NCBI GenBank assembly: GCA_030016755.1
Contig: JASEJC010000003.1
Location: 1-42,980 of the forward strand
Direction of reading: 5' to 3'
DNA: 42,980 bases
From: Candidatus Hodarchaeaceae archaeon
GTDB taxonomy: Archaea > Hadarchaeota > Hadarchaeia > Hadarchaeales > Hadarchaeaceae
Below the pieces are notes generated by a model. That model worked only from the letters and a program-made list of their open reading frames with translations, was not told where the DNA came from and did not search any database. The translations under genes were made by a program, and so were the position numbers. This document shows, piece by piece, positions 23,391-28,848 of this stretch (positions are counted from its first letter, which is position 1; each line of letters begins with the position of its first letter).

Positions 23391-24001
23391 CCCGCGTGCT
23401 CTCCCTCGAGGAAGGAACGTTGCTAGTGAGGACCGCCCGACGAACCATCGAAACCTACCTGCGGGAACGCAGAAAACCATCGGCGCCGAAAGTGCCCCCG
23501 AAGTTGCGCGAACCCCGCGGCGTCTTCGTCACTCTCATCAAGGGCGGCGAGCTCCGCGGATGTATCGGCCACCCACTGCCCACAACACCGCTAATCGACG
23601 CCGTGATCGACTCCGCCATAAGCTCAGCGACTCGCGACCCCCGTTTTCCGCCGATGGTTCCTGAGGAACTAACCGAAGTTGAGGTGGAGGTCAGCGCTCT
23701 CACGAAACCCGAACCCATAAAAGTGAAAACCCCACGCGAATATCCAGAGCACGTCGTCATCGGCAGGGACGGTCTGATCGTGGAGTGCGGCGGGTATGCG
23801 GGACTGCTCCTGCCCCAAGTGGCGGTCGAGTGGGGGTGGGATTCCGAGGAATTCCTCTCTCAAACCTGTCTAAAGGCCGGACTGCCGCCGGATTCATGGC
23901 TTGATAAGGATGTGCAGATAAGAAAGTTTTCGGCGCAGGTCTTCAGAGAGAAAGGGCCGAGGGGTGAAGTCGAGGAGCGCAAGCTCACGGAGAAGACCTA
24001 G
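23387..24001 (+). CDS. AMMECR1 domain protein
   Basis: 204 residues. The diagnostic LRGCIG motif is at about 56-61, with the flanking FVTLIKGGE and the RDPRFPPMVPEEL block. The C-terminal GLIVECGGYAGLLLPQVAVEWGWDSEEFL is also typical. The domain is conserved in archaea and eukaryotes with an unknown reaction; in archaea it is often next to Memo-type or radical SAM genes. Start is GTG or ATG-overlapping at 23387, coupled to the Mut7-C gene. Convergent with the radical SAM gene (17-bp overlap). Confidence 0.92.
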   Translation: MTRVLSLEEGTLLVRTARRTIETYLRERRKPSAPKVPPKLREPRGVFVTLIKGGELRGCIGHPLPTTPLIDAVIDSAISSATRDPRFPPMVPEELTEVEVEVSALTKPEPIKVKTPREYPEHVVIGRDGLIVECGGYAGLLLPQVAVEWGWDSEEFLSQTCLKAGLPPDSWLDKDVQIRKFSAQVFREKGPRGEVEERKLTEKT

Positions 24002-24965
24002 TAACTCCTAAGAGTTGCTCCCGAATAACCGCGATTTCTCTTGAGGTCGGTTTTCTTGGGTAGTTGTAGATAGGCCCCCGTGGTGACTCGTTGTAGAACG
24101 GGCGGTTACAACCCGGGCATCCCGAGGTGCGGAATGGTTCGCCTGAATCGACTGTCTTATTTAGGACACTCCCATCTACCCCAAAATCCACAATCCGCCC
24201 ACCATCGAAATGCATCCGCTCGGCCCTGCTCAAGTCGCTGACAATCAAAAACCTGGCGAGCTGGATTCTACGGTAGCTCGCGATATCCGGTTGGGTGTGA
24301 CCCGAGAGCTGGGTGCCGATGATCGGGGTGAACGCAAACAGCGCGATGGTGATACCTCGGTCGTGCAAGAGCTGGATTGTTTTCACCATGCCCTCCTCGC
24401 TCTCGCCGAGCCCTGCTATTAGGTGGGTCGAGACCCTGTCGCCGAAAATGGCTTGAGCGTTCTCCAGCGCCCTGAGATGCCCCTCCCAAGTGTAGCTGTC
24501 GCCCTTGACCCGCTCGAAGAGCTCAGGCGTCGCGGCATCCAGCGCCACGCTGACCCGCTCGACCCCAGCGTCCGCAAGCCTCTGGATATCGCCCGGCCCC
24601 AGCGGCTGGCAGGATGCTGATATCGGCAGGTTGCAGGCCCCTTTCACCCGCTCCACAAGCTCGCAGAGGTCGCCAACGACATTTGGATAGTTGACCGCTT
24701 GGATGCAGACGCGCTCGAACTCGTTTGAATTTTCCTTTAACCCTGCAAGGACTTTCTCCAGCTCAAATCGGGGCCAGATCACGCGCGACAGCATTTTCAG
24801 GTCCGCCGTGCTCTCCCGCGCTTGGGGGCAGAACCTGCAGTTTGCGCTGCAGCGGCCCTCGTAGTAGGTGAGAAAATGTGCGGTCGTCGGCGCCACCGCG
24901 AGCTGCCCGCGCCAGATGCCGAGAACGGCCCCGGTGCCGAAAGCCACCCTCACATGCTCAAGCAA
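23985..24965 (-). CDS. Radical SAM protein, LipS1/LipS2-type lipoyl synthase component
   Basis: 326 residues. CX3CX2C cluster motif C39-SAN-C43-RF-C46, biotin-synthase-like (ASCQPLGPGDIQRLADAGVERVSVALDAATPELF, AGLGESEEGM). A C-terminal CPGCNRPFYNE motif may bind an auxiliary cluster or metal. It overlaps a second radical SAM gene and lies in an operon with both lipoate ligase parts, the arrangement expected for the two-protein archaeal lipoyl synthase that inserts sulfur into octanoyl-carrier proteins. Start TTG 24965 (GTG 24953 is the alternative). Which of LipS1/LipS2 it is, I cannot decide from sequence alone. Confidence 0.8.
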   Translation of the reverse strand: MLEHVRVAFGTGAVLGIWRGQLAVAPTTAHFLTYYEGRCSANCRFCPQARESTADLKMLSRVIWPRFELEKVLAGLKENSNEFERVCIQAVNYPNVVGDLCELVERVKGACNLPISASCQPLGPGDIQRLADAGVERVSVALDAATPELFERVKGDSYTWEGHLRALENAQAIFGDRVSTHLIAGLGESEEGMVKTIQLLHDRGITIALFAFTPIIGTQLSGHTQPDIASYRRIQLARFLIVSDLSRAERMHFDGGRIVDFGVDGSVLNKTVDSGEPFRTSGCPGCNRPFYNESPRGPIYNYPRKPTSREIAVIREQLLGVTRSSP

Positions 24966-25878
24966 CCTCGCACCTCACAAAATCTGGCGGTACTGCGCAA
25001 CACCCGTCGAGCCTTCGCACCCGAAGCCCAAGCTTGTGTGCTGCCTGCAAGGTCTGCTCGCTCGGCAGCTCCATCCGATCGACACCCGCACGTAAAGCCT
25101 GATGCTCGATCTCAACCCGCCTAGCATCGCGCGGCCTCATGCAGCCCAGCGCCAGCGTTGCCTCTGGGAACTTGAGTCTGGCCTCCGCGATGAACTCACC
25201 GACCTCCGCGGGGCTTGGCCCAGCGATGCATTCAAACTCCGTTCCCGGGGTGGGCACGAGCACGAGGATGACAAGCGCCTGCGGGCTGATCTCCGCCGCG
25301 AGTTCAAGCGCCGCCCTCTCGCCCCTGATCTCACCAGCGTGCAAGCCGATGCAGATGTGGGGGACAACGTGGGGCAGCGAGCGCTTGAGCACATGGAGCG
25401 AGCGCCGGTAATCCTCGACGGTTCGATCTGTTCCAAGCACGAGTTCAATCGTCTCGTCGTCTCCTATCAGGTCGAAATCCGCTAGGTCGATGCCCACGCG
25501 GCCGAGTTCTCGGGCGAGCCAGTTTGGTGCCAACCCCGTATGGGCGCTGATAAATAGCCTCGTTTCACGCTTCACTTGTTCGATTGCGTCGAGGAAGGGC
25601 TCGAACGGCACATAACCTTCGCTGTTAAATCCGCCGCTGAGCAGCGCCCCCCGCGCGCCATTCGATGCGAGTTCTGAGCATGTCCTAAATAGGACATCGG
25701 GGGAGGGGCATGAAATCATCTGTTGCAAGTAGCGCCTGCCGCAGTGCTTGCAGTTCAGCGCGCATTCGTCACCAGTGATCGAGACGGTGGGGAACTTTGG
25801 GTGGGGATAGCAGGCCCAGAAAGTTGGGTCCCGCTCAAGTTTCATCGAAAATGCACGGCGTTTGTTTTCGGCTGTCAT
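24958..25878 (-). CDS. Radical SAM protein (COG1856-like), LipS1/LipS2-type lipoyl synthase component
   Basis: About 306 residues. Cluster motif C39-ALN-C43-KH-C46 with the following GRRYLQQMISCPSPD block of COG1856 biotin-synthase homologues; GARGALLSGGFNSEG replaces the usual GGE. C-terminal GCCAVPPDF holds paired cysteines. ATG 25878 overlaps the lplA stop (TAATG) and has GAGG 9 nt upstream, so it is preferred over 25896. Sits between lplA and the other radical SAM gene, supporting joint action in lipoate biosynthesis. Confidence 0.8.
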   Translation of the reverse strand: MTAENKRRAFSMKLERDPTFWACYPHPKFPTVSITGDECALNCKHCGRRYLQQMISCPSPDVLFRTCSELASNGARGALLSGGFNSEGYVPFEPFLDAIEQVKRETRLFISAHTGLAPNWLARELGRVGIDLADFDLIGDDETIELVLGTDRTVEDYRRSLHVLKRSLPHVVPHICIGLHAGEIRGERAALELAAEISPQALVILVLVPTPGTEFECIAGPSPAEVGEFIAEARLKFPEATLALGCMRPRDARRVEIEHQALRAGVDRMELPSEQTLQAAHKLGLRVRRLDGCCAVPPDFVRCEVA

Positions 25879-26633
25879 TAACGCTTCCTCAGCCATTTAT
25901 CCGACGAGTATTTTGATTTAAGTTCAGCGGCGAACTCGAGTTCCTCCCTCGTCAGCTGCCCCTCGAATAGCCTGACGCCGAGCGACTCCTCAAACCCCCT
26001 GCTCATCGCCTCGCGAACATCCTCGAAACTTGGCTTCCGCCCCAGCTCCCGCTCGACCGTCGTGACCCGCTCAAAAACAAATGCGATGAACTTGTCCGAG
26101 ATTTTTTCTGGGCTGACTTTGAGCAGCTCGAACATCCGCCGCACGTCCGGTGAAATGAGCACCGTCCCATGCTGGAGTACCGAACCCCATCGGCGCGTTT
26201 GGGCGCTGCCGGAAATTTTCTTTCCGTTTACCTGGACGTCGTTGACCGGTTTGAACTCGGCCCTGAGCCCAAGCTGTTCGAATCCCCTCACCAAACCCCC
26301 ACAAATCAACTTGTATGACTCTATGATGTCCGCTGGAACGTCCTCCTGCCTGCACACCACGCTGTACGTCAGCTCCCCCCCGTAGTCGTGAAAAACCGCT
26401 CCGCCGCCCGTGATGCGTCTGACCACATCGACGCCATACTTCTTAGCCACACCGAGGTCTACCTCACGCTCTACACTCTGGAAGCATCCTATCGAGACCG
26501 CCGAGGGAAGCCAGCGCCAGAATCGGATGGTGTTAGGCGACTTCCCCTCGGCGTTAAGCTTTAGTACTGCCTCATCAATCGCCATGCTCATGAACGCATC
26601 GTCCACACGCAAAGGTAACAAACGCCACTCCAT
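25878..26633 (-). CDS. lplA: Lipoate-protein ligase, catalytic part (LplA)
   Basis: 251 residues of the BPL/LplA fold. RRITGGGAVFHDYGGELTYS (about 72-91) is the lipoyl-AMP binding signature and NDVQVNGKKISGSAQTR (131-147) holds the catalytic lysine. The usual C-terminal accessory domain of bacterial LplA is missing and is encoded separately just upstream (lplB), the bipartite form known from Thermoplasma. Transfers lipoate or octanoate to a lipoyl domain; no lipoyl-carrier gene is in this window. ATG abuts the lplB stop (TAAATG). Confidence 0.93.
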   Translation of the reverse strand: MEWRLLPLRVDDAFMSMAIDEAVLKLNAEGKSPNTIRFWRWLPSAVSIGCFQSVEREVDLGVAKKYGVDVVRRITGGGAVFHDYGGELTYSVVCRQEDVPADIIESYKLICGGLVRGFEQLGLRAEFKPVNDVQVNGKKISGSAQTRRWGSVLQHGTVLISPDVRRMFELLKVSPEKISDKFIAFVFERVTTVERELGRKPSFEDVREAMSRGFEESLGVRLFEGQLTREELEFAAELKSKYSSDKWLRKR

Positions 26634-26909
26634 TTATCCACCTACCGCACGCAGAATGGCCTCGACCCAGTGCTCGGGCTCGACCATTGGGGTCTGGGCG
26701 CCACTCAAGCTGTAGAAATCTCGAACTGCCACAAGCAGGGCTTCCTTCCTCGCCTCGACGCCCTCAAGTGCCCGCTCCAGTTCCTCGATCGCCTCCTCCG
26801 GATACATGAAGAAGTCGCCGCTGAGCGAGATGCGCGAGATCTTGTCATCGCTCAGCTCCAGCTCGACCTTGATTACGCCCTTCGGGGCCTTGAACTCAGC
26901 GTAGCCCAT
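26634..26909 (-). CDS. lplB: Lipoate-protein ligase accessory domain (LplB)
   Basis: 91 residues: a short beta-rich start (GVIKVELELSDDKISRISLSGDFF) and helices (EEAIEELERALEGV) as in the C-terminal domain of LplA. The FxxPEEAIEELE pattern is typical. Needed with LplA for lipoate adenylation in split systems. The ATG comes 4 bp after the macro domain stop. Confidence 0.9.
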   Translation of the reverse strand: MGYAEFKAPKGVIKVELELSDDKISRISLSGDFFMYPEEAIEELERALEGVEARKEALLVAVRDFYSLSGAQTPMVEPEHWVEAILRAVGG

Positions 26910-26913
26910 CTGA

Positions 26914-27426
26914 TTACCTCAGCGCCTGCTCCCACGCGCCGACCATCTCCTCGCTCAGGTCGCATAAGATTATTTCCCGCAAGGTCTTGACGGGGGCGAA
27001 CTCCCTCACCGCCCGCACCATTGCCCTGGCCGCCGCCTCCGATGAAACCCCGCCGACCCCCGTTCCCATGCCGGGGATCGCGATGCTCTTCGCGCCGGCC
27101 TCGTCCGCGCACCGTAGCGCAGCGAGCGTCGCGCGATAGACTTTCTCGCTCGTGGTCGCCATCGCCGGGCGCTCCATGGTGGGCGCGTGCACCACCCACC
27201 GCGCCGGAAGTTTACCTGCTGTGGTTGCGATGGCTTTTCCAACTGGCACCGAGGCATGCCTCAGGGCTTCGCGCTCGATCTCCTCGCCGCCCGCCCGCTT
27301 CAGCGCACCCGCGGCTCCCCCGCCCATGGACATGAGGCTGTTCGCTGGGTTGCAGATCGCATCGGCCGCCTGCTTCGTCAGATCCCCGCGCTTGACCTCA
27401 ACCACCAAATCGCCGAGCCTGAACAT
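26914..27426 (-). CDS. Macro domain protein (ADP-ribose binding/hydrolase)
   Basis: 170 residues, single macro domain. Landmarks: GDLTKQAADAICNPANSLMSMGGG (14-37) with the catalytic-loop Asn and Gly-rich loop, GKAIATTAGKLPARWVVHAP (64-83) and AIPGMGTGVGGVSSEAAA (115-132). Such domains bind ADP-ribose and many remove it from proteins or nucleic acids. First gene of the lplB-lplA-radical SAM operon, 4 bp from lplB, and preceded at 53-71 bp by the repeated palindrome. The context suggests a role on ADP-ribosylated lipoyl proteins, by analogy with bacterial SirTM/macro/GcvH-L loci; no sirtuin gene is seen here. Confidence 0.92.
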   Translation of the reverse strand: MFRLGDLVVEVKRGDLTKQAADAICNPANSLMSMGGGAAGALKRAGGEEIEREALRHASVPVGKAIATTAGKLPARWVVHAPTMERPAMATTSEKVYRATLAALRCADEAGAKSIAIPGMGTGVGGVSSEAAARAMVRAVREFAPVKTLREIILCDLSEEMVGAWEQALR

Positions 27427-27478: not shown

Positions 27479-27497
27479 TTGTTATATTTATAACAAC
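27479..27497. promoter_or_regulatory. Palindrome with TATA-like core (copy 2 of 3), divergent macro / membrane protein region
   Basis: TTGTTATATTTATAACAAC; the outer G:C pair of copy 1 is replaced by C on the left. A further half-site, AACTAGTTGT, lies at 27465-27474. It separates the macro/lipoylation operon (minus) from the membrane protein gene (plus) and could serve as TATA or operator for either. Confidence 0.6.
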
Positions 27498-27552
27498 TGG
27501 ATGAGTAGTGAAGGTTTTATCGGTGGCGCGAAAGGGTTGGTGGGGGTTGAAA

Positions 27553-27906
27553 ATGAAAATTGTGATTAGACAGGTGGCCTTTGACTTCCTGTTTGGCGGC
27601 GCCCTTGTGGCCGGGGCTCTGCTCGCGGCGGCGCTGCTCGGCCCAACCGCGGGGGGCATCCTCGCTGGGGCCCCGATCCGGACCAGCGGGGTGATCGCCC
27701 TGCATTACATTCACAACCGGGACCTTGGGGCAACGACCGAGATGACGCGAGGAGTGGTCATGGCAATGATCTCGAACGTGTTCTTCGCCATCGGCCTGTA
27801 CCTCGCCATCCCGAGGCTGGGCATCGTCGGCGGGTTCTTGGCCGCTAGCCTTGTGTTCGTCTTGGCAGTGCTCGCGCTGTCACAGCTGGTCCCTTTGCTA
27901 AAATAA
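27553..27906 (+). CDS. Small membrane protein, DUF3147-like
   Basis: About 117 residues with four hydrophobic stretches: FLFGGALVAGALLAAALL, GGILAGAPIRTSGVIAL, VVMAMISNVFFAIGLYLAI and GGFLAASLVFVLAVLALSQLV. The GAPIRT / HNRD arrangement resembles DUF3147 membrane proteins. ATG 27553 follows GGTGGGGGTTGAAA; a GTG at 27508 is less likely. Function unknown. Convergent with the MinD-like gene, 12 bp apart. Confidence 0.65.
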   Translation: MKIVIRQVAFDFLFGGALVAGALLAAALLGPTAGGILAGAPIRTSGVIALHYIHNRDLGATTEMTRGVVMAMISNVFFAIGLYLAIPRLGIVGGFLAASLVFVLAVLALSQLVPLLK

Positions 27907-28829: not shown

Positions 28830-28848
28830 TTGTTATATTTATAACAAC
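28830..28848. promoter_or_regulatory. Palindrome with TATA-like core (copy 3 of 3), upstream of MinD-like gene
   Basis: TTGTTATATTTATAACAAC followed by TAG, the same as the reverse complement of copy 1 with its CTA flank. It lies in the 97-bp gap between two minus-strand genes, after the stop of the small multidrug-export-like gene. Confidence 0.6.

Follow-up and report, generated by a model that had tools for sequence, protein, structure and literature searches.

The window that we analysed, a stretch of 42,980 nucleotides from a Hadarchaeota archaeon, carries five closely packed genes on its minus strand in the order macro, lplB, lplA, lipS1, lipS2. The first of these (26914..27426) encodes a macrodomain protein of 170 aa that matches Pfam PF01661 at 100.6 bits (E 7e-29, cut-off 22). 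It is followed by lplB (26634..26909, minus strand), encoding the small subunit of a bipartite lipoate-protein ligase (NF053749, 79.5 bits, cut-off 65), and by lplA (25878..26633, minus strand), encoding the catalytic subunit (PF21948 LplA-B_cat, 176 bits). The best model for this LplA is LplA_large (NF053750), at 227 bits, yet this score lies below the exception cut-off of 480. Two radical SAM lipoyl synthase subunits complete the set, both on the minus strand: lipS1 (24958..25896, with its start at 25896 or 25878; NF053742, 264.6 bits, cut-off 230) and lipS2 (23985..24965; NF053743, 347.4 bits, cut-off 270). Because LplB, LipS1 and LipS2 all exceed their curated cut-offs and are accompanied by an LplA catalytic domain, the locus encodes an LplAB-LipS1/LipS2 lipoate assembly.

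The spaces between these genes are minimal. Macro and lplB are separated by 4 bp (TCAG), and lplB and lplA meet in TAAATG. If lipS1 begins at the internal ATG at 25878, lplA and lipS1 meet in TAATG; the upstream ATG at 25896 would give a 19-bp overlap. The overlap of lipS1 and lipS2 is 8 bp or 4 bp, and the Shine-Dalgarno-like GAGG of lplB sits within the final macro codons. Since macro and lplB share a strand, are only 4 bp apart and have the lplB leader placed inside macro, macro is likely co-transcribed with lplB-lplA-lipS1-lipS2. A preliminary description of this DNA had placed a macro domain gene, lplB, lplA and two LipS1/LipS2-type genes on one strand, with these junctions, and had viewed them as a co-transcribed unit that pairs a macro domain with a de novo lipoate pathway; the profile searches bear out the gene identities and the pairing, and we regard the co-transcription as likely. 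A scan for promoters and terminators using sigma-70 models, which are unsuited to archaea, found nothing exceeding chance.

The four lip proteins and the clustering of their genes are common to the window and to the known archaeal LplAB-LipS1/LipS2 cluster (PMC10332631, PMC9585515). In a 2023 archaeal survey, lipS2-lplA-lplB-lipS1 was the typical arrangement and macrodomains were not mentioned. The window differs in its order, lplB-lplA-lipS1-lipS2, and in having macro in front.

The macro protein is predicted to adopt a macrodomain fold (AlphaFold2 pLDDT 87.7), and the model matches macrodomain structures. TTHA0132 (PDB 2dx6) is its closest structure both by sequence and by fold (40% identity, TM 0.84/0.91, E 9.8e-31). 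The best NCBIfam model is NF001666 (PRK00431.2-2, 'ADP-ribose-binding protein'), with 201 bits against an equivalog cut-off of 246; therefore, we refer to the protein as TTHA0132-like and not as a member of NF001666. We know of no lip operon context for TTHA0132. The window protein is not a zinc macrodomain, as its glycine-rich GGGAAGALK loop is intact and it scores 49.9 bits with the Zn-Macro model NF003163, for which the cut-off is 272. We also considered a DarT/DarG pair and rejected it: the DarG model gives 39.6 bits against 250, and the neighbours of macro are MinD and the lip genes, with no DarT beside it.

The catalytic set of MacroD hydrolases, as defined in OiMacroD, consists of N27, N30, D40, H44 and Y134 (PMC5413906). 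At these positions the window protein has N26, N29, A39, K43 and G125, all invariant in 15 Hadarchaeota homologues. The protein thus shares its fold, its GGG loop and both active-site asparagines with the MacroD hydrolases (OiMacroD, MacroD2 and a MacroD-type gene in another family of the class), but it differs from them in the replacement of Asp, His and Tyr by Ala, Lys and Gly, so that three of the five catalytic residues are missing. The binding residues (N26, N29, the GGG loop and the GTG loop) are kept in the 15 homologues. A pocket lacking hydrolase residues had been named beforehand as a finding that would speak against an eraser function, and the loss of Asp, His and Tyr is such a finding, with the two asparagines retained. 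These residue losses make hydrolysis by the window protein less likely. Some activity could nevertheless persist, since Af1521, which like TTHA0132 has Ala in place of the catalytic Asp, is nonetheless active (PMC5413906).

A search with the sirtuin profile PF02146 was negative across the entire window genome and all 22 genomes of family f1, in keeping with the earlier remark that no sirtuin was in view. In families f1 and f2 the macro gene is TTHA0132-like and sirtuins are absent; genomes of family f3, also in this class, carry sirtuins and a canonical MacroD-type gene (GGGVDGAIH). This distribution argues against sirtuin-made O-acetyl-ADP-ribose as the main macro substrate in f1.

To describe the neighbourhood within Hadarchaeota, we surveyed by profile 27 genomes of the class and 1 further genome of the phylum (G000 being the window's genome). 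LplB was found in 16/27 class genomes and macro in 21/27; macro is also present in 14 of the 16 that carry lplB. In nine genomes, coordinates and fetched regions show macro immediately before lplB and on its strand. The gap is exactly 4 bp in eight of these (G000, G003, G010, G011, G012, G013, G014 and G015) and 7 bp in the ninth (G001). The direct junction spans four genera (g1, g2, g5 and g6). In one further genome (G005) macro lies close to lplB at a contig edge, and in three (G017, G018 and G019) it lies 1.6-2.6 kb upstream. Because the same 4-bp junction recurs in eight genomes, the neighbourhood is neither a chance arrangement nor private to the window genome, which would have counted against a functional link. 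Each gene also occurs without the other: G006, G021 and G022 have macro but no lplB, and G016 and G002 have lplB but no macro.

As a control for gene order, we counted other genes linked to macro. MinD or a 132-aa gene is linked to macro in 10 genomes, compared with 13 for lplB, so the two linkages are comparable in frequency. To our knowledge, neither MinD nor the 132-aa gene has any connection to lipoate. The latter (27508-27906, plus strand) encodes a membrane-like protein found beside MinD and macro across Hadarchaeota, and it has no Pfam, NCBIfam or PADLOC match.

Several lip loci in the survey have unusual arrangements. In G012 (L105:1226-3736) and G001 (L116:861-2681), lplA and lipS1 are separated by an opposite-strand gene for a large protein of secreted or surface type (606-836 aa). 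G012 has two lplB-lplA pairs on different contigs (L104, L105). In G005 (L011), a second LplB-like match lies within a longer LplA-like frame on contig C40, adjoining another LplA-like gene.

The genomes in which macro and lplB stand apart show what can lie between them. By Pfam, the order in G019 is macro, ABC ATPase, ABC-2 permease, lplB, lplA, lipS1, lipS2. G017 and G018 also have an ABC ATPase and permease between macro and lplB, with a TatD gene after macro. In G022, which belongs to an outgroup family and has neither LplB nor LipS1 above cut-off, macro is followed by an intact version of this ABC ATPase and permease pair. The overlap of the macro stop with the ATPase start, ATGATAA, is identical in G022, in G019 and in a remnant in G009. 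That remnant (L101:6741-7240) comprises the 68 C-terminal permease residues and 59 residues of lplB behind macro; the intact lip operon of this genome lies on a different contig. A permease fragment immediately precedes lplB in G002, and a decaying permease remnant follows macro in G006 (L113), where a large secreted-like protein gene adjoins it. A protein search did not find the permease in the window genome.

If the ABC pair was lost, the point at which macro now meets lplB might retain a trace of it. We compared nine macro-lplB junctions with three permease-lplB junctions. The window junction, CTGAGGTAA-TCAG (26910..26923, minus strand), matches the one between permease and lplB in relatives. 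In G019 the permease ends in TGGAGGTGATCGCCCTGGGATACGCGGAG, the last part of which is the leader and start region of lplB; macro ends in CTGAGGTGATCGCTTGGGGTACGCGGAG in G011 and in CTGAGGTAATCAGATGGGCTACGCTGAG in the window. The 3' end of the window macro gene carries the same GAGGTRATC leader as the permease end in relatives, so the permease end and the lplB leader fall on the final codons and stop of macro. These data suggest that the macro/lplB junction is probably a deletion scar of the ABC pair. We infer that the deletion occurred at short homology and left the ribosome-binding sequence of lplB within macro.

The opposite direction would make the direct macro-lplB junction ancestral, with the ABC pair inserted later in some lineages. 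The occurrence of the direct junction in four genera, one of which (g2) also holds an ABC-bearing genome, is compatible with such an insertion, as are the poorly supported gene trees of macro and LplA. However, the outgroup-family genome G022 has macro and the ABC pair with the same overlapping start and without lplB, and the decaying permease remnants in G009 and G006 point to loss. We consider the insertion quite unlikely. Because of the remnants and the state of G022, loss of the ABC pair is favoured over gain; with trees this weakly resolved, the loss may represent one deletion or several. On these comparisons, the macro-lip neighbourhood looks secondary, a product of the loss of the ABC pair.

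To see whether the association extends beyond Hadarchaeota, in line with the neighbourhood search across archaea proposed in the preliminary description, we scanned a genome collection covering 84,980 species by LplA alignment, which gave 80 loci, 11 of them from Hadarchaeota. Each locus was profiled for macro, LplB, LplA, LipS1 and LipS2 within 6 kb. Macro was part of the lip operon in 0/69 of the loci outside Hadarchaeota, some of which lie on short contigs whose flanks do not reach 6 kb, and among these loci the association is restricted to this phylum. Apart from Hadarchaeota loci, macro was found within 6 kb of LplA only in one Acetomicrobium. This macro gene was rejected as an operon member; it is MacroD-type, lies 4.2 kb upstream and is separated from the operon by two opposite-strand genes, so we regard its position as coincidental. 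Acetomicrobium (Synergistota; L132, L133) has lplB-lplA-lipS1-lipS2 in the Hadarchaeota order, with an LplA 70-71% identical and no macro gene. This suggests that the lip operon may have been transferred between the domains without the macro gene.

Upstream of macro, between it and the divergent 132-aa gene, lies a perfect 18-bp palindrome, TTGTTATAWWTATAACAA (27479..27496, no strand assigned), 52 bp before the macro ATG. The window holds three exact copies (1000-1017, 27479-27496 and 28830-28847), where shuffled sequences predict 0, and the genome holds five; the reversed control sequence has 0 copies in 27 genomes. With 0-1 mismatch, the palindrome occurs upstream of macro in 7/16 genomes. 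It also stands before both macro and lplA in G015 and before lplA in G019, so that macro and lplA may be under a shared regulator. The palindrome is probably an operator or promoter element. Elsewhere in Hadarchaeota it is found ahead of larC, IF2, NDK, S4e, a dnaG-like gene, a 91-aa gene and others, and it forms arrays with spacings of ~35-115 bp in G022 and G018. Because the sites also precede unrelated housekeeping genes and form arrays, we conclude that it is a general element and does not define a lipoate operator or regulon. Redox control of the Rex type was rejected, since the Rex N-terminal domain (PF06971) is absent in 27/27 genomes.

The genome search that had been proposed for sirtuins and lipoyl carriers returned neither: besides the absent sirtuin, the window genome gives no match to GCV_H (PF01597) or Biotin_lipoyl (PF00364). 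Lipoate assembly genes are thus present in its 87% complete assembly, whereas a GcvH or any other protein with a lipoyl domain was not found; because of this incompleteness, the missing carrier may be an assembly gap. In G011 and G019, gcvH and two gcvP-like genes (identified as gcvP by reading the sequence) come after lipS2, which makes GcvH the probable lipoyl carrier in the family.

The bacterial SirTM/Zn-Macro extended operon encodes GcvH-L, a zinc macrodomain, SirTM and LplA together (PMC11490716; also PMC4518038). The window locus resembles it in a single feature, a macrodomain gene packed tightly against a lipoate-protein ligase gene. It differs in having no sirtuin, no zinc-loop macrodomain and no GcvH-L, and its ligase is instead the archaeal bipartite LplAB with LipS1/LipS2. 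The preliminary description had proposed that the macro protein removes ADP-ribose from lipoyl carriers, which would make the locus a sirtuin-free archaeal analogue of the bacterial operon, with another transferase as the writer. The 4-bp spacing conserved in eight genomes, the gcvH and gcvP genes that bring a carrier into the wider cluster of relatives, and the activity of Af1521 without its catalytic Asp all fit this proposal. However, family f1 has no sirtuin, the window protein is not a Zn-Macro, its catalytic Asp, His and Tyr are all lost, and the carrier was not found in the 87% complete window genome. Moreover, the neighbourhood is limited to Hadarchaeota, with 0/69 loci outside, and looks secondary, and macro occurs where lplB is absent. 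These data argue against the proposal, and we consider such an eraser highly improbable.

Retention of the binding residues with loss of the catalytic ones in 15 homologues, along with likely co-transcription with the lip genes, would fit a reader. In such a role, the macro protein would sense ADP-ribose or another NAD metabolite and, by binding to one of the operon's products, adjust lipoylation or glycine cleavage. The presence of macro without lip genes in G006, G021 and G022 makes a dedicated role of this kind doubtful, and we regard it as unlikely. A broader form of these ideas, in which Hadarchaeota would use ADP-ribose, in a system without sirtuins, to control lipoylation or the carrier of glycine cleavage, by means of a non-zinc TTHA0132-like macro protein that is co-expressed with LplAB-LipS1/LipS2 and binds or removes ADP-ribose on lipoyl-GcvH, appears to us very unlikely.

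We favour, with a probability of roughly 0.68, a general ADP-ribose-binding macro protein that was placed in front of the lip genes by gene loss and is co-transcribed with them without being dedicated to lipoylation. The protein would be a TTHA0132-type macrodomain, small and standing alone; its ligand would be ADP-ribose or a related NAD metabolite, and it might also hydrolyse weakly by a substrate-assisted route. Its older partner in Hadarchaeota would be the ABC ATPase and permease, in the order macro-ATPase-permease-lplB-lplA-lipS1-lipS2. Deletion of this pair in the lineages of the window genome would have brought the 3' end of macro onto the lplB leader, so that macro now heads the lipoylation transcription unit. 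The products of lplB-lplA-lipS1-lipS2 would first octanoylate a lipoyl carrier, which in relatives is GcvH, and then sulfurate it, and macro would be co-expressed with these genes, presumably with no action of its own on lipoylation. Gene identities and order, their distribution, the match of the junctions, the predicted fold and the residue losses are observations, whereas co-transcription, deletion as the direction of change, the ligand and the lack of a role specific to lipoylation are inferred from them.

This explanation is in agreement with the ABC genes between macro and lplB in three genomes, with the permease fragment in G002 and with the name of the nearest NCBI subfamily, 'ADP-ribose-binding protein'. 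Against it stand the direct junction, whose retention in nine genomes from four genera could reflect selection for co-expression, the palindrome that may place macro and lplA under a shared regulator, and the joint presence of macro and lplB in 14/16 lplB-bearing class genomes.

These results indicate that a suggestive operon neighbour can arise when genes between two older units are deleted. They also caution that the bacterial SirTM/Zn-Macro model should not be transferred to archaea from proximity alone. We know of no ADP-ribose-lipoylation connection outside sirtuin operons; if the link between macro and lipoylation in Hadarchaeota is functional, it would be the first.
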